Origin: Solibacillus sp. FSL H8-0523
Lineage (GTDB): Bacteria; Bacillota; Bacilli; Bacillales_A; Planococcaceae
Direction of reading: 5' to 3'
NCBI RefSeq assembly: GCF_038051985.1
Contig: NZ_CP150291.1
Span: 3,286,001-3,350,000, forward strand
DNA length: 64,000 bases
Of this stretch, positions 10,247 to 62,680 are shown piece after piece. The notes beneath the pieces were generated by a model. That model worked only from the letters and a program-made list of their open reading frames with translations, did not search any database and was not told where the DNA came from. Position 1 is the first letter of the stretch; every line of letters begins with the position of its first letter. The translations under genes were made by a program, and so were the position numbers.

Positions 10247-10413
10247 AAAAAAACCTTTCTACCTGATGACAAGTAGAAAGGTTTCGCAAATATATACGTA
10301 GAACCGTTCTCTCATCTTTCAAAGTCTTAAACTTTGTGTGAATTGGCACCTTTGCATCGCTGCTGGTTGCCGGGCTTCATAGGGCACTTCCCTCCACCTC
10401 TCTTTATAAGAGT
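10247..10413 (-). promoter_or_regulatory. SAM-I (S-box) riboswitch of metN-metI-metQ
   Basis: Read on the minus strand, the region starts with a CTCTTATAAAGAG helix and shows AGAGGTGGAGGGA, then GAAGCCCGGCAACC, then GGTGCCAATTC, the conserved S-box core. It ends in a strong terminator hairpin (AACCTTTCTAC / GTAGAAAGGTT) followed by a run of T. Known behaviour of the class is that SAM binding lets the terminator form, so transport genes are off when SAM is plentiful. Confidence 0.95.
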
Positions 10414-19006: not shown

Positions 19007-20895
19007 ATCGAGTAGGAGGGAGTGATTAACTCCCGACCTCTCACACCACCGTACGTACGGATCCGTATACGGCGGTTCAATTAAGATGAATAACGCAAAG
19101 TTTCGTAACGAACTTGCAGACTTTTCAGCCCTTGGCTTTCCCAATAGGAATTGCCGAGGGTTCTGTGTAATATGGGGCTATTTGAAATGCGCCAGTACCC
19201 TTTTCGGGTATTTCCCCACTCGTATGCTTTCCCGTAAGGTACTTTTAGACGAATGAGATTTCTGACTCTTGTTCGGGGGTTCTTCCAATTCTTCCACAAA
19301 CACATACGTAATCTTCGTTTAATCCAGCCATCTAATGCTTTAAATATGGAGTACGTATCCGCTAGAGCGAAGTAGCCACACCAACCTATCAGATATTGAT
19401 TCAACTTTTCGATTCTGTATTCGATGGAATAAGGCATCTTTCTTGAGGTAATTTCTCGTATTTTCTTCTTCATTCGTATGAGGCTTGATTTCGCAATGCG
19501 AACTTTCGGTTCTTTATGATGTGTAAAACTGAAGCCTAGGAATTTACGGTTCCACGGACGGTCTACCGCTGATTTCTTTTCATTTACTTTCAGGCGAAGT
19601 TTTCCTTCGATAAATCGCTGTACACTTGCCATTACCCGTATTCCTGCACGCTCTGTTTTCACATAAATATTACAGTCATCTGCGTATCGAACGAATTTAT
19701 GTCCACGTTTCTCTAATTCTTTATCGAGTTCGTCTAAGACGATATTAGAAAGTAAAGGACTTAAAGGACCACCTTGAGGTGTCCCTTCTTCTGTACTTGA
19801 AACTACTCCATTTATCATGACACCCGCTTGGAGGTATTTACGAATCAGTATTAATAATGGTTTATCTGAAATTCGTTTTGCTAATGTTGCCATTAGACGG
19901 TCATGGTTGACCTTATCAAAGAATTTCTCCAAATCCATATCAATCACCCATCGATAGCCCTCTTTTAAATAGCCTTTCGCTTTTCTGACCGCATCATGAG
20001 CGCTTCGATTTGGACGAAAGCCATAACTGTGGTCTGAAAATGTTGGGTCATATTCTTTTGATAAAATCTGCGAGATGGCTTGTTGAATCAAACGGTCTGT
20101 CACGGTTGGTATTCCTAATAAGCGCACACCGCCATCTGGTTTCGGGATTTCGACACGACGGACTGGCTGCGGTTCATAGGTACCATCTAAAATCTGCGAT
20201 TTAATCGTATGCCAATTTTCGAGGATGTGCTGTCGTACGGTTTGTACGGGCATCATGTCTACTCCGTGGCTTCCTTTATTCGCTTCTACTCGCTTTAATG
20301 CTTGTATCATGTTTTGTCGCTCCAAAATTTGATTCAACATCACCATTTCGTTCCTTTCCGTGAATAGCTGTTCTTCTTTTACCCAACTGGACTACACCCT
20401 CCGCAAATACCCTCGTGGAATTCACCACTACTTTCTAAGCGTGAGGTTTCTACTGTTTTCTGTGTTCGTTCATCCTAATTGGAAAGCCAAGGGCTATTCT
20501 CTCCTAATTGTTCAGTCCTTCCAAGTAATTCTAGACTTACTTGTACTATGACCTCTGCTGACTTCTGACAGTTCAGCTACTTGTCACCAAGTAGGTTATG
20601 AAGGGTACTTCACATTACTGTCAGACCTCCCCGGGTAAGCGCATGCACTTTCACACCATCTATCCGCCTCATTTACTTGATATGACCTTCGACAGAAGGG
20701 ACTTTATCTTGTCTTGCAGATTCATCCAATCATACCTAGCCTTCTATGAGATTCGTGTTCCTCGGACCGGTGTTTTGCCGCCAGCTTCCTTCAGATTCCG
20801 CGTCGCCACGGACACCCTTGCTTTTGGCTAACCTCTACTTCTGTCTTCGGGGTTCGGGACTTGCACCCTATAGTTCATGCGCATGCCGGGCGCAC
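19007..20895 (-). mobile_element. Group IIC intron, complete
   Basis: About 1.89 kb on the minus strand. The 5' end reads GTGCGCCCGGCATG, the typical start. The 3' part has a domain V-like hairpin (CCGCCGTATACGG to CCGTACGTACGGTGG, about 19050-19078) and ends near CTACTCGAT. Domain IV encodes the reverse transcriptase; bases 20347-20895 hold RNA domains I-III. It sits 4 nt after the U-tract of the terminator at 20898-20934, the target preference known for group IIC introns. The 3' boundary may be off by a few nt. Confidence 0.9.
19081..20346 (-). CDS. ltrA: Group II intron reverse transcriptase/maturase
   Basis: 421 aa, the usual length of class C intron-encoded proteins, which lack the C-terminal endonuclease domain. 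Reverse-transcriptase blocks are intact: GIPTVTDRLIQQAI, YGFRPNRSAHDAV, TPQGGPLSPLLSNIVLDELD and the catalytic RYADD near residue 220. The maturase X domain follows (about 300-400). It resembles the GsI-IIC type enzyme. Nothing suggests inactivation, so the intron may be mobile. AAAGGAA precedes the start. Confidence 0.95.
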   Translation of the reverse strand: MVMLNQILERQNMIQALKRVEANKGSHGVDMMPVQTVRQHILENWHTIKSQILDGTYEPQPVRRVEIPKPDGGVRLLGIPTVTDRLIQQAISQILSKEYDPTFSDHSYGFRPNRSAHDAVRKAKGYLKEGYRWVIDMDLEKFFDKVNHDRLMATLAKRISDKPLLILIRKYLQAGVMINGVVSSTEEGTPQGGPLSPLLSNIVLDELDKELEKRGHKFVRYADDCNIYVKTERAGIRVMASVQRFIEGKLRLKVNEKKSAVDRPWNRKFLGFSFTHHKEPKVRIAKSSLIRMKKKIREITSRKMPYSIEYRIEKLNQYLIGWCGYFALADTYSIFKALDGWIKRRLRMCLWKNWKNPRTRVRNLIRLKVPYGKAYEWGNTRKGYWRISNSPILHRTLGNSYWESQGLKSLQVRYETLRYSS

Positions 20896-42714: not shown

Positions 42715-43638
42715 TTACGTTCGTGTTATTTTGTAAAAAATAGAAGCTAATACTTGTTGAAATAGCATTCCAAAGACAACCGGCATAGCTACTTTTGAAG
42801 GGAAGTATGTTGTTGCGATGACAACCCCAACAGCAATATTGCGCATCCCTCCGTTAAAAATAAATGTCGCTTGATCGGCCTTGGTTTTTAAAAATAGCTT
42901 CCCAAGCACTAACGCTAGTACATAGCCTGATGCTGCTACAAGAAGTACTACCCCAATCACAAATGCGAGTTCGGCATTGATATTTTTCACATACGGTGCA
43001 ATCGCGCTACTATTTATCATGATAATGCCAAATAGAGAGCATTTCGATAGCAATGCAAATGGCTGACTAAAGCGTTGTTGTAACGTTCCCTTCGTCCATT
43101 CCCCCACAATCATCCCTAGAATCGACGGTAATACAATCATCCAAATTAAATCAAAAATAAGTGAAACCGTATCAAGTTGAATCATTTCTCCGACAACAAC
43201 ATGTAAAAGTAACGGCATTAAAATGGGTGCCAGGAGCGTATCAATTAAAATAATGGCTAAACATAATGGAAGATTCCCTTTACTAATTGTTACCCAAATA
43301 ACACTCGTAACACCTGTAGGTACAGCTACCGAAAGTAAAAAGCCGATTGTTAATAAATGATCATCAAAAATAATTTCCGCTAATGTGTACGCCCAAAGCG
43401 GCATTAAAATATGTAAAAATGCGATGACAAATAAAATGGTTCTCGGATAAGTTTTAAACACTTTAATGTCCCTAAATTTTAAGCTTAAACTGCTGATAAA
43501 CGTCATAAGTGCAAATAAAATCGGTACTAAAAATAACAAATGACTCCCTATTTGCTCCATTAGTACGCCGATCACTAAACTTACTGGCGTTAGAATCGGC
43601 ATATACCGCTGCATAAATTGATTAAGTTGTTGAACCAT
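42715..43638 (-). CDS. Bile acid:sodium symporter-family transporter
   Basis: 307 aa with nine or ten membrane segments, of the BASS/SBF superfamily. The segments ILIDTLLAPILMPLLLHV and FNGGMRNIAVGVVIATTY are conserved in YocS-like bacterial members. Substrate unknown (organic acids are common for the family). The ATG at 43638 follows GAGG at 9 nt; earlier in-frame starts to 43686 are unsupported. The 262 nt between here and the HD-GYP gene contain no further gene. Confidence 0.75.
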   Translation of the reverse strand: MVQQLNQFMQRYMPILTPVSLVIGVLMEQIGSHLLFLVPILFALMTFISSLSLKFRDIKVFKTYPRTILFVIAFLHILMPLWAYTLAEIIFDDHLLTIGFLLSVAVPTGVTSVIWVTISKGNLPLCLAIILIDTLLAPILMPLLLHVVVGEMIQLDTVSLIFDLIWMIVLPSILGMIVGEWTKGTLQQRFSQPFALLSKCSLFGIIMINSSAIAPYVKNINAELAFVIGVVLLVAASGYVLALVLGKLFLKTKADQATFIFNGGMRNIAVGVVIATTYFPSKVAMPVVFGMLFQQVLASIFYKITRT

Positions 43639-55746: not shown

Positions 55747-56184
55747 TTATGCGTTCGCTTTTGCGCGCTGGCTTTGATGCAATTTTTTCATAGCAAAGCG
55801 TGCAATTGGTTGTGCGATTAATAGCTCAATCCAAAAGGCAATCGCAAAGTTACGCGGCCAGATATAGAAGAGGTTTTGAATCGGCTTAAGAGAAATTTTC
55901 CCTTCACCAACCCAGCTTCCGATAATTGATAAACAGATTGATAATATCGTTACATTTAATACGGTATTTAATAGAACGCGTGCATTAAAGCCGTCCGTTT
56001 GACCAACAAACTTCGGCATAATTTTCCCCACAAGTGGGTCAGCAACAAGGCGGACTAATAATACTACAATTACCCACATAATAGGTAATAGTTTTAATGT
56101 GTCGAAGTAAACTTCTTTCGAAAAACCACGTTCAAATCCGATGATGAGCGGTGCGATTGTATTTACAGAAACAAAAATATAATT
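55747..56184 (-). pseudogene. DUF2798-like membrane protein, 5'-truncated
   Basis: The frame stays open from a TAA at 56185-56187 down to the stop at 55747, but no start or ribosome site lies before the Met at 56079. Upstream residues (NTIAPLIIGFERGFSKEVYFDT) continue the protein logically, so the true 5' end is missing. The family normally has a further ~20-30 N-terminal residues. Hydrophobic pattern and the ending IELLIAQPIARFAMKK fit DUF2798. The break point meets a chemoreceptor-like remnant on the other strand. Confidence 0.65.
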
Positions 56185-56189
56185 TTACG

Positions 56190-56339
56190 ATAAGTCATTC
56201 AGCAGAACAGTTAACGATTAAAGCACAAGGCAATTTACAGGCAACCGAAGAAGTAGCAACAGCCTCAGAGGAAGTACTTGCTTCAATGGAAGAAATGGCT
56301 ACTTCTGCAGAATCCTTAAGAAAACACCGTTCGAATTAA
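56190..56339 (+). pseudogene. Chemoreceptor (MCP) C-terminal remnant
   Basis: About 49 residues beginning ISHSAEQLTIKAQ and continuing EEVATASEEVLASMEEM, the typical C-terminal helix of a methyl-accepting chemotaxis protein. The 5' part is missing and the frame joins the truncated DUF2798 gene near 56170-56190. A deletion or rearrangement probably brought the two together. Confidence 0.65.
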
Positions 56340-56362: not shown

Positions 56363-57217
56363 TTACTCTTCGTTTGCTAATTTTTCTTTAACAAATGTCG
56401 GTAGCATAAATGCGCCAACATGTAAGTCGGTATTATAATACTTCGTTTTTAAGCCGAAATTGTTCCACTCCGTAGGCTTCACATCTTGAATTGGATCAAA
56501 TGTTTTTGAGGCAAAACCGAATAACCAATGACCTGATGGATAGGTCGGCATATGGAATTGATACACGCTTGCAATTGGGAAAATATTTTTGATTTTCTTA
56601 TGCGCTTTTCTCATATTTTCCGCATATTCCGCGAAATATGGCGATTCATGCTGGTTAATTAAAATTCCGTCATCAGTTAATACTCGGTAACATTCCTTAT
56701 AAAATGCAGTTGTAAATAAGCCTTCACCCACTGAAATCGGATCGGTTGAATCCACTAAAATTAAATCAAATGACTTGTCCTGAGCATTTTTTACATATGC
56801 TAACCCGTCATCAAAAATCATCGTCATGCGCGGGTCTTCTTCTACCCCTGCCGCTGTTAATGGTAAATATTTTTGACTTAAACGGAATACTAATTCGTCA
56901 ATTTCTACCATAACTACTTTTTCAACTGATTTGTAGCGTAGTACTTCACGCGCTGTACCTCCGTCGCCACCACCAATAATTAATACATTTTTAATATTCG
57001 GATTTGTAGCAAACGCTGGGTGTGTGATCATATCGTGATAAACAAATTCATCTTTTTCATTGACCATCATCAGTCCGTCTAGTGTAAAAAATGTACCGAA
57101 ATCGTCGCCTTTATAAAAATCAATTTGCTGGAATGGTGATGCTTCACTGTGTAGTTGCTCGTTGTAGCGTAGTGAAAATCGGCAATCATCACTCCATTGT
57201 TCTGTATACCATTTCAT
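56363..57217 (-). CDS. speE: Spermidine synthase
   Basis: 284 aa aminopropyltransferase that makes spermidine from putrescine and decarboxylated SAM. N-terminal WYTEQWSDDCRFSLRYNEQL, SAM-type VLIIGGGDGGTAREVLRY and LILVDSTDPISVGEGLFT are the characteristic motifs. Its start codon overlaps or touches the speD stop (57217), so translation is coupled. Last gene of metK-speA-speD-speE. Confidence 0.95.
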   Translation of the reverse strand: MKWYTEQWSDDCRFSLRYNEQLHSEASPFQQIDFYKGDDFGTFFTLDGLMMVNEKDEFVYHDMITHPAFATNPNIKNVLIIGGGDGGTAREVLRYKSVEKVVMVEIDELVFRLSQKYLPLTAAGVEEDPRMTMIFDDGLAYVKNAQDKSFDLILVDSTDPISVGEGLFTTAFYKECYRVLTDDGILINQHESPYFAEYAENMRKAHKKIKNIFPIASVYQFHMPTYPSGHWLFGFASKTFDPIQDVKPTEWNNFGLKTKYYNTDLHVGAFMLPTFVKEKLANEE

Positions 57218-57651
57218 TACATCGCTGCCTCCACAACTTCTTGTTTTACAGAAATTTGCTCAATTTCTTGCTCTGCGAATTGGCGGATTTTATCAGCCAT
57301 GCCACGTGGAACTTCGAATGATTCTGTCTTTTTCGCTTGTAATTTCTGTTCTAAATATTCGGCTGCCTTCCATGGGCTCACTGAATCACCACATGTGTAC
57401 ACGTCTACTGAAGCAAAGCCGTATTCTGGCCAAGTATGGATTGTTAAATGTGATTCCGCAATAATTACCGCGCCTGAAACGCCGTATGGGTTGAAGTGGT
57501 GGAAACAAGATTCTACAATTGTTGCACCAGAATAATCCGCTGCCTCGTTCATAAATTGCTCAATTAATTTGTTTTGCTCAATAATTTCTGCTGGGCAACC
57601 ATAAAATTCGATTAATACGTGTCTTCCTAATGTTGATAATTCAATGCTCAT
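57217..57651 (-). CDS. speD: S-adenosylmethionine decarboxylase proenzyme
   Basis: 144 aa, the short prokaryotic class. The autocatalytic cleavage site is in AESHLTIHTWPE, Ser becoming the pyruvoyl group; YTCGDSVSPWKAA follows. It makes the aminopropyl donor for speE. The length exceeds the core enzyme by a C-terminal Glu-rich tail (about residues 115-144). B. subtilis calls it speH. It touches speA upstream. Confidence 0.95.
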   Translation of the reverse strand: MSIELSTLGRHVLIEFYGCPAEIIEQNKLIEQFMNEAADYSGATIVESCFHHFNPYGVSGAVIIAESHLTIHTWPEYGFASVDVYTCGDSVSPWKAAEYLEQKLQAKKTESFEVPRGMADKIRQFAEQEIEQISVKQEVVEAAM

Positions 57652-59142
57652 TTATCTATCTCCCTTAAGTACTAAAATTTGATGTTTTTCTTGTGTTTCC
57701 ACCAGAACATTGCCAATATTGCGACTATAGAAGTCATAAACCTGCAAGACGCGGGGTGAAATAACCTCACCCGGAATCACAAGTGGAATGCCTGGCGGAT
57801 AAATCATAATAGAATCGGCACTTATTCGGCCAATTGCTTCATATATATTGATCGTTTCATGCAACTGCTGACTTGCCTGCTGTGGTGTCATGGCAAGTTC
57901 ATTCATTTTCTCATTTAAAACATTTGGCAAATGGATCGGCTGTTGTTTGGCAAAACGTTGTTCAATATCCTTTAATGCATGGACTAACTTCGTCAGGGAT
58001 TGTTCACTGTCCTTATAGCTAATGACACACATCACGACATAACCTTCCGCAAGTTCAGCTTGGATACCATAGTGTTTTTTTAATAATGTATACACTTCAA
58101 AGCCTGTTAGCCCTAAGTCATTTACGCGAATGACTAGCTTTGTCCAGTCATACCCTTGCTTGAACTTTTTGTTAACATAATCTGACTTTAATACTTCGTA
58201 GCGTGAATTTATTTCAAGTATTTCAATCGCCTGCATGACAACTGGCTTCAATGCTTCAAAGCGTTCGCGGCCAAATAATGCGAGTTCTTTTCTTGCGACA
58301 TCGAGTGAGCTCATTAATAAATAGCTGGCACTTGTTGTTTGCAACATATTTATAACTTTTTGCATATGATTACTAGGAATTAAAGTTGTCTTTTGCAGCA
58401 AAAGCGAGCTTTGTGTAAGGGAGCCCCCTGTTTTATGCATGCTAAGTACAACCAAATCCGCGCCCGCTTTAATCGCATCAAGTGCTTCTGGCAATACAGT
58501 TAAATGCGCGCCATGTGCACTATCAACTAATACAATTGTATTTTGTTCATGCGCTAATTCACAAATTTTCTTAAGTCCATTCATCGCCCCAAAATACGTT
58601 GGGTAGGTGACTAAAATCGCTTTTGCGTGTGGATTTTCCACGAGCGCTTTTTTGGCACTGTCGACAGAAATACCATGTGCAATGCCGAACTTTTCATCGA
58701 TTTCGGGCTGAATAAATACCGGCTTGGCGCCACTTAGCAAAATACCGTTCATGACGGATTTATGGCAGTTACGTGGAACGAGTATTGTGTCGTTTTGCTT
58801 ACACGTTGCTAAAATCATGGCCAAAATTCCAACTGTCGTACCGTTCACTAAAAAATACGCTTCATCTGCATCAAAGGCCTGTGCCGCTAAGCGATGAGCT
58901 TCTTTAATAACACTTTCAGGATGGCTCAATAAATCGAGCTCCTGCATGGAATTGGCGTCCATTCGCAATGTCATTTCACCAAGCGTATCGTTTAGTGGAT
59001 GATCATCGATTCCGCGCTTATGGCCGGGTACGTCAAATGGGGTAATGTCTTTTTTTGCATAGCTTACGAGTGCGTCGTAAAGCGGTGTGCGCTGCTGTGT
59101 AGTGACGAATTCATCCGCCACTACACGCTCTACAACTAGCAT
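57652..59142 (-). CDS. speA: PLP-dependent basic amino acid decarboxylase, arginine-decarboxylase-like
   Basis: 496 aa, fold type I Orn/Lys/Arg decarboxylase (FDVPGHKRGIDDHPL, VLVDSAHGAHL and the PLP lysine in SMHKTGGSLTQSS). In the SpeA/YaaO family from Bacillus it makes agmatine from arginine. The polyamine context supports this. No agmatinase (speB) is in the window, so a direct ornithine or lysine decarboxylase role cannot be excluded. Start overlaps the metK stop by one base. Confidence 0.85.
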   Translation of the reverse strand: MLVVERVVADEFVTTQQRTPLYDALVSYAKKDITPFDVPGHKRGIDDHPLNDTLGEMTLRMDANSMQELDLLSHPESVIKEAHRLAAQAFDADEAYFLVNGTTVGILAMILATCKQNDTILVPRNCHKSVMNGILLSGAKPVFIQPEIDEKFGIAHGISVDSAKKALVENPHAKAILVTYPTYFGAMNGLKKICELAHEQNTIVLVDSAHGAHLTVLPEALDAIKAGADLVVLSMHKTGGSLTQSSLLLQKTTLIPSNHMQKVINMLQTTSASYLLMSSLDVARKELALFGRERFEALKPVVMQAIEILEINSRYEVLKSDYVNKKFKQGYDWTKLVIRVNDLGLTGFEVYTLLKKHYGIQAELAEGYVVMCVISYKDSEQSLTKLVHALKDIEQRFAKQQPIHLPNVLNEKMNELAMTPQQASQQLHETINIYEAIGRISADSIMIYPPGIPLVIPGEVISPRVLQVYDFYSRNIGNVLVETQEKHQILVLKGDR

Positions 59143-60311
59143 TATTGTACCTTTACTAAAAGCTGGTGTTTTAAGTCGCTTACTTTATCTGTTCTTTCCC
59201 AAGGGACATCTAGTTCGGTACGTCCAAAATGACCATACGCAGCAACTTGTTTGTATTGCGGTTTACGTAAATCGAGCATGTTAATAATGCCGTTTGGTGT
59301 TAAGTCAAAAATTTGACGAATCGCACGAATGATTTCCTGTGTTGAAACCTTTTCGGTACCGAATGTTTCAACGGCGATACTAATTGGTTCACTTACCCCA
59401 ATGGCATACGAAAGCTGAATTTCACATTTATCAGCTAAGCCTGCTGCGACAATATTCTTTGCCACATAGCGCGCTGCATATGCTGCAGAACGATCTACTT
59501 TTGTGCAGTCTTTACCTGAAAATGCTCCGCCGCCGTGACGAGCTGCCCCGCCGTACGTATCAACAATGATTTTACGTCCTGTTAAACCAGCATCTCCGTG
59601 AGGTCCGCCTACAACGAAGCGTCCTGTTGGATTAATTAAAATGCGGAAGTCATCATTCATCGCAAATTCACGCGCAGTTTGTTTAATAATGTGCTCAGCT
59701 ACGTAAGACTTAAACGCCTCTTCTTCAAAGTCATCATCATGCTGAATTGACATTAATACGGTATCTACCTTCGGGGTAACTGATGTGTAATCAATTGTCA
59801 CTTGTGATTTCATATCGGGACGAGCCCACTTAAATTCACCTGACTTACGTAATTTGCTTGCACGCTTCACAAGTGCGTGTGCCATCTCAATTGCAAGTGG
59901 CATATAGTTTTGCGTTTCATTTGTCGCAAAGCCAAACATAATGCCTTGGTCACCGGCACCAACCTCTTGCGTATCACTTGAAGCATCTACACCCATTGCG
60001 ATATCTGGAGATTGTGTGTGTACCAGTACTTGTACGTTACAGTTGTTACCGTCAATGCCAAATTTGTCATCTGTGTAACCAATATCAGTTAACGTTTGAC
60101 GGGCGATTGCCTCAAAATCAATTACGGCTTTTGTCGTAATCTCTCCACCAACAATCACGGTATTCGTTGTTGTAAATACTTCACAAGCAACGCGTGATAG
60201 TGGATCTTGTGCTAACGCTGCATCTAGCACTGCATCTGAAATTTGGTCTGCGATTTTATCTGGATGCCCTTCCGATACGGACTCCGATGTAAATAATACT
60301 TTTTCTAACAA
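59142..60311 (-). CDS. metK: S-adenosylmethionine synthetase
   Basis: 389 aa; makes SAM from methionine and ATP. Motifs [33 protein letters not shown] and [18 protein letters not shown] are conserved and intact. AGGAGAAGTGACA precedes the start. First gene of an operon that also holds the SAM-consuming spermidine genes, an arrangement that links SAM production to polyamine demand. Leader and promoter are listed separately. Confidence 0.97.
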
Positions 60312-60353
60312 TTGTCACTTCTCCTAACATTCATCATATTTACTTGAATTTAG

Positions 60354-60551
60354 GCACAAAAAAAGCTCACCCAATTTTTAAGGAAAGCTTCGAAAAGTAT
60401 CATCTGCTGTTCCTCTTATTGTTCACAAAATAATTTTTGTGCTCAGGTTCGGCCCACAGGATTCTACCCTGCTTGAATAAAATTGTTTGGCCACCACATC
60501 TTCGACCCCTCGTCTCAGTGGTTATTAATAAGAGCTATATTCTTTATGCTG
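60354..60551 (-). promoter_or_regulatory. Structured metK leader RNA, class unassigned
   Basis: Minus-strand leader of about 200 nt. It has a perfect 8-bp closing helix CTCTTATT (60534-60527) / AATAAGAG (60420-60413). Three hairpins lie inside: ACCAC/GTGGT with a GAC/GTC tip, CAGG/CCTG within GGCC/GGCC, and CACAAAA/TTTTGTG. A second fold pairs GCACAAAAA (60442-60434) with TTTTTGTGC (60362-60354), which would exclude the third hairpin. A weak AAGCTTTCC / GGGTGAGCTT hairpin with T7 lies near 60361-60395. No S-box signature (GGAGGGA, GGCAACC) and no T-box signature. Confidence 0.6.
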
Positions 60552-60557
60552 AGACTC

Positions 60558-60586
60558 ATACTAAGTTATAAAGATTTTAAAGTCAA
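60558..60586 (-). promoter_or_regulatory. Sigma-A promoter of metK-speA-speD-speE
   Basis: TTGACT (60586-60581), 17-nt spacer, TAGTAT (60563-60558) on the minus strand. It leaves a leader of about 240 nt before metK. Bases 60587-60930 are AT-rich; I see no gene or clear RNA there. Confidence 0.65.
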
Positions 60587-60924
60587 CAGTATTTTTGATA
60601 AATTTTTAGGATTGATATGCTAGAAAATGGATCCCTATTGCTAGAATACTACTCAATATGCAAAATAATAAAGGTTTTTTATGATTGTATTTTAATGCAA
60701 TATTACTCATAAATATAAATTCAAAGGTTTTCCATTAGTAATAGAAGAAACTCCTATATTATTTGGTACTAATTGTGTTACGAAAACAAAAAGCCATTTA
60801 AAGAATGACACTTTTCAAGCAGGAATTTTCCATACAATTGAATACTGAAAATACGCTTCAACACACTAAAGTTCTAAAATTCATAATATATAGACATTTA
60901 ATTTGCAACCGAATCAAGTCAAAA

Positions 60925-60975: not shown

Positions 60976-61007
60976 AACTTATACTTTAAACTTATACTTT
61001 AAACTTT
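60972..61007 (-). repeat. 13-bp tandem repeat at the chemoreceptor stop codon
   Basis: The unit TTTAAAGTATAAG, which encodes the last codons and the stop (Phe-Lys-Val-stop), is present 2.6 times. The extra copies lie after the first stop, so the protein is unaffected. Confidence 0.7.
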
Positions 61008-62680
61008 CCAATTTCCTGCTGTAATTCTGCCGCGCTATCAACTAACGCTAGGGCAATGCCACTTACTTCTTGCATCGTTGCCGACTGCTCCTCCATCGCT
61101 GCTGCAATGGAATCGACGCTTTGTGAAGCTGCATCTGCCCCAATAGCAATTTCATTGACCGATGCCGAAACTTCTTCAGCACTTGCTGATAGCTGCTCCG
61201 CTGTTGCTGAAATGTCTTGGATTTGATTTGTCATGACACTTACAGCACCAACGATTTCATGGAATGATTCTCCGGCATTTCCGATAATCTTTACACCTTC
61301 TTTTACAGAGCCTAACGCACTCGATACCGCCTGTTCAACGTTTGCTGTATCACGCTGGATTTCCACTGTTAACCCAACAATTGAGTTTGCCGATTGCTTC
61401 GAGCTTTCCGCTAAGTGACGGACTTCATCTGCCACAACCGCGAAGCCTTTCCCGTGCTCTCCTGCACGTGCTGCTTCGATTGCTGCGTTGAGAGCAAGTA
61501 AATTTGTTTGATCGGTAATATCGGTAATCACTTTTGTCATATGCTCAATTTCAATCGTTTGCTGAGCTAGTTTTTGCACTAATTCATTTACCGTTGCCGT
61601 TGAATCGTTAATTGTCGTCATCTGGACTTTTGCTTGTTCAATTGTGTCGACACCCTTTGAAGCGGTTTGACTAGCATCCAACGCTGAATTATGCAGAACT
61701 TGTGATGATTCTGCGATACGCTGAACACCTTGAGCCGTTTCTTCCATCGCACGTGCACTTTCACTTGATGCGGATGCCGATGCTTGAGCTGAATCTGAAG
61801 TTGCCTCTAATTGCTTTGTGACATCTTCTGTTGTTGCCGTAATTTCTTCCGTACTTGCCGATAGTTCCTCAGATGCTGCCGTTAACTGCTGGGCATTTCC
61901 CTGTACAGATTGAATCAGCTGATGCAAGTTATCCTTCATTTTATTGAAAATCATACCAAGTTGGCCGATTTCATCTTTTGAAATCACTTTAATGTCTTGC
62001 TGTGTTAAATCGCCATCCGCAATGAATTCTGCCGCATGCATTAATCGACTAAGTGGATGAATGATTGTACGGCGGATAAAAATAATTAAAACAATTGCTA
62101 CTACAATTGCTAATACAACACTTACTAATGACACAATTCTTGTATAGCTAATCGCCTTTTCTGATTCCTCTTTTATTTTTACCAGCTGTTGTTCTTGATA
62201 ACTAACCATCTCAGTTGCCGCTTCTAAAATCCCTTCATTAGCTACAACAAGATCTGAATTGACAATGTTAAAACTCACCATAATATCATCATTACGATCT
62301 AATGAAGCGAGTAATTTTTCTACACCTTCATTAAAGGTAGCATTATGTACTTTAATTTCAGCAATTAAGCCTTTCATTAATTCTGAGCTAACCATGCCCT
62401 CTAACGTATGAATATTTTCATCAAGTGCCGCTGCGTGCGTTGTTAGTAAATCACGGTTTCCCTGTGAATCTTCTAAAATTAATGCACGTGAATAAGCACC
62501 TTGAAAAGCTAAATTTGCACGAATATCATCGACAATCCCAATTTGCTCCACACGATTATCTAAAGCATCTGATTGTTTGTTTTCTACTGTCGATAAGTTT
62601 ATAAAAACAAGGATTGTTGTCAAAATCATCAAACCGATGATGGTATAAAACGATAAATTCAACTTTAAACCGACCTTCAT
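60992..62680 (-). CDS. Methyl-accepting chemotaxis protein
   Basis: 562 aa transmembrane chemoreceptor. TM1 is about residues 7-29, the extracellular 4-helix-bundle-type domain about 30-185, TM2 about 187-209, HAMP about 210-262. The cytoplasmic signalling helices contain the hairpin tip [22 protein letters not shown] near residue 400. Ligand unknown. The ATG follows GGGGG. No chemotaxis genes adjoin, as is usual for orphan receptors. Confidence 0.93.

Follow-up and report, generated by a model that had tools for sequence, protein, structure and literature searches.

A probable spermidine riboswitch of the SAM-I-variant type upstream of the metK2 polyamine operon in Solibacillus sp. FSL H8-0523

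The DNA analysed, here called the window, is a stretch of 64,000 nucleotides from Solibacillus sp. FSL H8-0523 (contig NZ_CP150291.1, positions 3,286,001 to 3,350,000). On its minus strand four genes, metK2, an OKR-type decarboxylase gene, speD and speE, directly abut, preceded by a leader (positions are those of the window):

59142..60311 (-): metK2, second SAM synthetase, TTG start (TIGR01034, 570.7 bits)
57652..59142 (-): PLP amino-acid decarboxylase, OKR_DC_1 family, Ldc/SpeA type, of ambiguous substrate; below every curated cut-off
57217..57651 (-): speD, SAM decarboxylase; the only match in the genome
56363..57217 (-): speE, spermidine synthase; the only match in the genome and among 16 genomes of the genus

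This gene content agrees with the initial annotation, in which the operon was said to make and spend SAM and a polyamine signal was considered plausible. An agmatinase is encoded elsewhere in the genome and putrescine and spermidine are therefore plausibly makeable, and the other SAM synthetase gene, metK1, stands under a SAM-I riboswitch of its own (75.3 bits). By eye, the polyamine operon lies between a long chemoreceptor-like ORF (60992-62680, minus strand) and a short ORF resembling a chemoreceptor fragment (56151-56339, plus strand), flanks that are possibly the mark of an insertion.

The leader is made up of the following elements:

60558..60586 (-): sigma-A-like promoter TTGACT-17-TAGTAT, 9/12 matches; start predicted near A60550
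60550-60354 (-): whole leader, real and structured
60540..60550 (-): predicted 5' terminus of the mRNA, AGCAUAAAGAA, able to pair with 60363-60354, the terminator U-run and the GUGC after it
60413..60534 (-): putative spermidine-riboswitch aptamer (SAM-I variant), P1 to P1', identified by covariance model R1 (118.3 bits) and relatives
60527..60534 / 60420-60413 (-): P1, the 8-bp closing helix CUCUUAUU / AAUAAGAG, from alignment pair counts
60523..60526 (-): J1/2, AAUA; in SAM-I A-A-G-A, the G being the methionine contact (PMC3764141)
60493..60522 (-): P2a ACCAC/GUGGU (two pairs changed on both sides), kink-turn UGA..GA, P2b GAC/GUC and L2 GAGGG
60451..60492 (-): P3 with pocket loop, GGCC-AA-ACA / UGU-G-GGCC, from folds and the pocket tally
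60442..60450 (-): J3/4, GAACCUGAG; CC 60447-60446 is taken to pair with GG of L2, a pseudoknot predicted from SAM-I
60424..60441 (-): P4 CACAAAA/UUUUGUG, 100% paired in 45 rows, three pairs changed on both sides
60380..60415 (-): antiterminator GAGGAA-c-AGC / GCU-UUCCUU, having 60415-60413 in common with P1; seven core pairs invariant in 45 rows
60358..60390 (-): putative intrinsic terminator AAGCUUUCC..GGGUGAGCUU then UUUUUUU, from forced folds; its 5' arm is in common with the antiterminator

The promoter proposed in the initial annotation is a weak signal alone, as three sites at 9/12 occur in the region against 1.8 in shuffles, and similar boxes are seen by eye (uncounted) before the relatives. 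The closing helix and the three inner hairpins described there are all in the sequence, with AAC as J4/1, and the fold of the 247-nt stretch is modestly more stable than those of shuffled versions (-58.7 against a mean of -50.5 kcal/mol; z -1.9; 8 of 200 shuffles as good). The terminator-like hairpin is present, by eye and in forced folds, as a stem of eight pairs, one of them G-U, that contains a single U-U mismatch and runs into seven U, although a strict terminator scan of the region found none.

When running Rfam 15 on window positions 60200-60750, a check proposed with the initial annotation, no family was found at E up to 5, the SAM-I (S-box) model RF00162 included. On the leaders of Trichococcus ilyis and Oceanobacillus damuensis, the species assayed in the description of spermidine riboswitches by Salvail, Balaji, Roth and Breaker in 2023 (PMC10853860), nothing beyond the SAM model appeared at E up to 1, and that model gave 44.0 and 40.5 bits, both just below its cut-off of 44.4. 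Because no family reaches its cut-off on the window or the two assayed leaders, leaving the class uncovered by Rfam at that level, the window leader looked like an orphan. Among ten relatives tried with RF00162, five scored 38.9-44.6 bits while at E up to 5 there was no match for three loci of the window's subgroup (L020, L021, L024) nor for L032 and L035; as the model misses the window and three other members of its subgroup, the link to SAM-I runs through intermediate sequences. One relative (L033, 1556-1676, minus strand, J1/2 AAAA) reaches 44.6 bits, above the cut-off, and would be annotated as a SAM riboswitch.

The statement in the initial annotation that the S-box core is absent from this leader holds for the canonical letters only, since the architecture of P1-P4, kink-turn and L2-J3/4 pseudoknot is present in mutated form; with the canonical letters changed the relation is easily missed by eye. 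The leader shares with SAM-I riboswitches this architecture and the transcription-termination logic, but differs in the loss of the methionine-contact G11, in an altered P3 internal loop and in the missing RF00162 match. The S-box noted elsewhere in the window is a canonical SAM-I riboswitch at 10309-10412 (minus strand). It and the metK1 S-box (L018) have the ancestral fold in common with the leader, but with RF00162 they score 87.9 and 75.3 bits and with the spermidine-type model 33.2 (10309-10413) and 40.1. The window also contains pieces of a group II intron at 19007-20812 (minus strand; RF02001, RF01998 and RF00029).

A DNA search with the leader among 200 genomes of the family matched 24 at 25 places, and in 22 of these genomes (its own included) the match comprised most of the aptamer and platform, the other two showing only ~50 nt at the terminator. 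The 22 long leaders, the window among them, were used to build alignment A1 and the covariance model R1, the matches L042-L044 (34-54 nt around the terminator) being excluded. Over 261 genomes of the order R1 matched 89, with 29 at 102 bits or more and all others at 54.8 or less; among the latter, the alignments of L074 and L089 show the canonical S-box core, and L018 and window 10309-10412 are RF00162 hits. A pattern derived from the alignment found 42 places in a named genome collection (84,980 species), 41 of them matching R1 at 102.7-128.4 bits; the pattern hit that R1 did not match, in a Nitrospirae bin (L103), was taken as chance. R1 over 398 genomes of the class gave no match at 100 bits outside the family, the named members from outside having come via the pattern scan, and in plasmid and phage collections the leader was unmatched at E 1e-5.

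R1 scores the window at 118.3 bits, the leader of T. ilyis at 112 (in an assembly different from that in PMC10853860) and that of O. damuensis at 120, so that a single pattern and a single model gather all three. The aptamer of the window is, with gaps counted as differences, 71% identical to that of O. damuensis and 62% to that of T. ilyis. According to the available text of PMC10853860, 13 variants of SAM-I riboswitches reject SAM and sense spermidine, whose binding leads to transcription termination, an OFF mechanism demonstrated for T. ilyis; according to its Figure 1 legend, J1/2 and the internal loop of P3 depart from those of SAM-I. Judged by this sequence comparison the window leader is a homologue of these SAM-I/S-box variants, a new example of a kind of switch already known. 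The remark in the initial annotation that it could be a known class gone unrecognised was to the point, and the description of the leader as unassigned and unrelated to the S-box has to be given up.

Seven of the 13 loci of PMC10853860 were recovered at the coordinates published there: O. damuensis (43206-43328, inside the published 43200-43335), C. (Bacillus) thermoamylovorans, O. massiliensis N'diop, V. arvi (679805-679928, inside 679798-679934), Sporosarcina sp. D27, Ornithinibacillus californiensis and O. contaminans. The leaders of T. ilyis and T. flocculiformis were recovered under accessions other than those in the available text of that paper, and its loci from R. stabekisii, Trichococcus sp. 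ES5, Lysinibacillus sp. BF-4 and an environmental record are absent from the 41 pattern matches. A literature search on "spermidine riboswitch" gave PMC10853860 as the sole report on the class, judged by titles and abstract openings.

The features reported for the class are found in the window leader as a SAM-I four-stem fold with an L2/J3-4 pseudoknot (its pairs invariant), AAUA for AAGA in J1/2, a P3 loop AA/G with a C-G pair, a position before polyamine genes, metK being among the class targets, and, by sequence and energy and with the negative terminator scan, a P1/antiterminator/terminator platform of the OFF type. The leader differs from the described class in being distinct from those members listed in the available text of PMC10853860 that were compared, in its C-G pocket pair in P3, in a ligand assigned by homology, and in belonging to a genus where 15 of the 16 genomes examined are without the riboswitch. 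None of the other 15 shows a riboswitch match reaching 100 bits, a metK of the metK2 type or a match to speE, and the metK2 unit was therefore either gained here or lost from the other members of the genus. In another genome of the genus (G014, L019) there is also a second metK, which belongs to a different type and shares 47% identity with that of the window.

The order metK2-decarboxylase-speD-speE is complete in 21 of 44 loci examined and a further 11 begin with metK2 on DNA too short for the rest (in L099 with only 39% identity over 109 aa), while the decarboxylase gene comes first in 10 (seven Trichococcus, two Rummeliibacillus-type and a Sedimentibacter record) and two have too little DNA to show the order. 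Two metK genes occur in 26 of the 29 riboswitch-bearing genomes of the family, the riboswitch-linked one being 76-85% identical to that of the window and the other 56-61%; by coordinates the former type lies directly behind the riboswitch in 26 of 26, and three riboswitch-bearing genomes of one genus have only the 56-61% type.

Several individual relatives show features of their own. In the operon of Kurthia gibsonii (L109), speD is 97%, speE 88% and metK2 82% similar to the window but the decarboxylase only 65%, an unevenness that suggests gene replacement within the operon. In Oceanobacillus massiliensis (L106) metK2 consists of two ORFs (207 + 153 aa matched) and may be broken or contain a sequencing error, Sedimentibacter sp. 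SX930 (L130) carries a Trichococcus-type leader and decarboxylase, by transfer or in a mixed assembly, and a preQ1 riboswitch (RF00522, 43.8 bits, cut-off 39) is situated near a Lysinibacillus operon (L129, 815-861, minus strand).

Covariation of the helices, another check proposed earlier, was analysed in a structure alignment (A3) of 46 leaders with 45 distinct rows. P1-P4 and the pseudoknot are paired with standard pairs at 98.8%, five pairs are changed on both sides (58 cells) against 3.7 pairs and 16.9 cells in shuffles, and the covariation score is 0.201 against 0.119 for shuffled columns and 0.034-0.087 for slid partners. The changed pairs lie in P2a and P4, and the window is the only row with a change from G-C to A-U in P2a. 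Further pair types were not above shuffles (15 against 16.8, and 11 against 11.8 in the 22-leader alignment, where the structure statistics were otherwise similar). Many pairs in P1, P2b and the pseudoknot never vary and are uninformative for covariation, and for the 40 named rows the search pattern itself dictated the letters that it fixed, those of J1/2 included, so that their conservation there is built in. All 45 rows carry the antiterminator core AGGA..AGC/GCU.UCCU unchanged, and covariation therefore says nothing about it.

In the window the antiterminator takes up 60415-60413, of the outer P1 strand, and 60388-60380, overlapping the 5' arm of the terminator, so that the helices are mutually exclusive. 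Before the 3' arm of the terminator is made, the fold with the antiterminator has -39.7 and that with P1 -38.8 kcal/mol, a gap of 0.9 and a near balance as a switch needs. Once the U-run is complete, the fold with P1 and terminator and the one with the antiterminator lie within 0.2 kcal/mol of each other. At low spermidine the segment GAGGAAcAGC on the 3' side of the aptamer would pair with GCUUUCCUU and, as an antiterminator, occupy three nucleotides of P1 together with the 5' arm of the terminator, letting transcription continue into metK2-decarboxylase-speD-speE. When plentiful, spermidine would bind the four-stem aptamer, keep P1 closed and block the antiterminator, and the terminator would then halt RNA polymerase upstream of metK2. 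What is proposed here about the ligand, about the way control runs and about termination itself is carried over from the assayed homologues, the OFF mechanism from T. ilyis.

Ahead of a metK gene a diverged SAM-I riboswitch that still senses SAM would be expected, and the SAM-I architecture and the near-cut-off RF00162 scores of five of the ten relatives are in line with this. SAM-I riboswitches, however, conserve A45 and U57 and use G11 of J1/2, together with C44 and G58, to recognise the methionine part of the ligand (PMC3764141), and when positions are mapped through the RF00162 alignments of relatives G11 is U and A45-U57 is C-G in the window. The G11 position is U in 21 and A in one of the 22 leaders from the DNA search, and U in 45 of 46 overall, the pattern itself having required U in the 40 named rows. 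Given also that RF00162 does not match the window, that the assayed homologues reject SAM (PMC10853860) and that the other metK of the genome has a full SAM-I riboswitch, SAM as the ligand is very unlikely. Within the spermidine class, a subgroup tuned by its altered P3 pocket to another polyamine, such as spermine or aminopropylcadaverine, would fit a decarboxylase that may make cadaverine. The pocket pair is C-G in the window (C60489, G60454), A-U in T. ilyis and A.G in O. damuensis, and eight of 46 sequences (the window, K. gibsonii and six Lysinibacillus) combine C-G with A-U instead of C-G in the next stem pair; this subtype is absent from the seven loci of PMC10853860 that were examined and from T. 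ilyis and T. flocculiformis (L122 compared by eye). In a tally of the 46 rows, picking the better-pairing of two registers for each, the AA/G-type loops have A-U in 14 rows (T. ilyis included), C-G in eight (the window subgroup) and an unpaired A.C in three, O. bengalensis has C-G with a GA/G loop, and in the other 20 rows the 3' loop base is absent and the pocket is A.G, A.C or, once, A-U. A radically shifted P3 pocket was rejected, the closer tally revealing the AA/G loop of T. ilyis with changed flanking pairs; in the six Lysinibacillus rows A faces A, a mismatch, at the third pair of the P3 stem. As the changes preserve that loop, the operon is the same as that of the other metK-linked subgroups and the agmatinase makes putrescine and spermidine plausible, a different polyamine is improbable.

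The initial annotation had proposed two pairings of GCACAAAAA (60442-60434), which as a switch would point to a new riboswitch class, and both complements exist, UUUUGUG locally (60430-60424) and UUUUUGUGC distally (60362-60354). Over the 45 rows the distal pairing is found in 79.3% of cells against 78.5% in shuffles (5 of 500 as high) and has one pair changed on both sides, but the eight rows concerned are all Trichococcus-type leaders and stand for at most one inherited event. The inner C-G pair of this helix is lost in 18 of the 45 rows and its three final pairs in 9, 10 and 43 rows, respectively, whereas the local P4 is kept in 45/45, and in minimum-energy folds the partner of UUUUUGUGC is GCAUAAAGAA at the 5' end rather than GCACAAAAA. 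The distal pairing was rejected as a conserved switch and a new class built on it has next to no probability; by the alignment the conserved switch is P1/antiterminator/terminator.

The distal segment is better matched by the transcript's 5' end, GCAUAAA facing UUURUGC. These columns are 93-100% conserved except for one A/G-switching column on each side (61% with six gaps; 54% with one U), and conservation falls to 41-80% in the outer flanks, 5' of the first patch and 3' of the second, the columns directly after the first patch being at 80-89%. In 38 of 46 rows the duplex outdoes those formed by shuffled 5' leaders (at most 10 of 200 mononucleotide shuffles as strong; 6 of 200 for the window), the test failing in L033, L124 and the six Lysinibacillus rows that belong to the subgroup of the window. 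In the 45 rows none of the pairs of this helix is changed on both sides, the helix does not exceed column shuffles and covariation is absent; the eighth pair is broken in 40 of these rows. It is a doubtful proposal that GCAUAAA pairs with the U-run and RUGC past the terminator as an additional long-range element, so that read-through transcripts alone would close a 5' clamp. Such a clamp goes beyond what the available text of PMC10853860 describes and could, if true, lock the ON state and shield the mRNA 5' end, as a layer of memory or stability.

The reading preferred here, at a probability of about 0.9, is that the leader is a riboswitch of the spermidine class that turns off transcription of the metK2 operon, with spermidine as a ligand that homology and gene context support well. 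New are this member, the compensated P3-pocket subtype common to Lysinibacillus and Kurthia gibsonii, the complementarity between the 5' end and the region after the terminator, and a wider census, in which 32 of the 41 named leaders carry species names missing from the list in the available text of PMC10853860, enlarging a class defined on 13. An apparent orphan is hereby placed in a rare and recent class whose members genome annotation tends to miss or mislabel, as the assayed ones stay below the cut-off of every Rfam 15 family. For the organism this points to a design where one SAM synthetase is under SAM control and the second, together with speD and speE, is probably under end-product control by spermidine.
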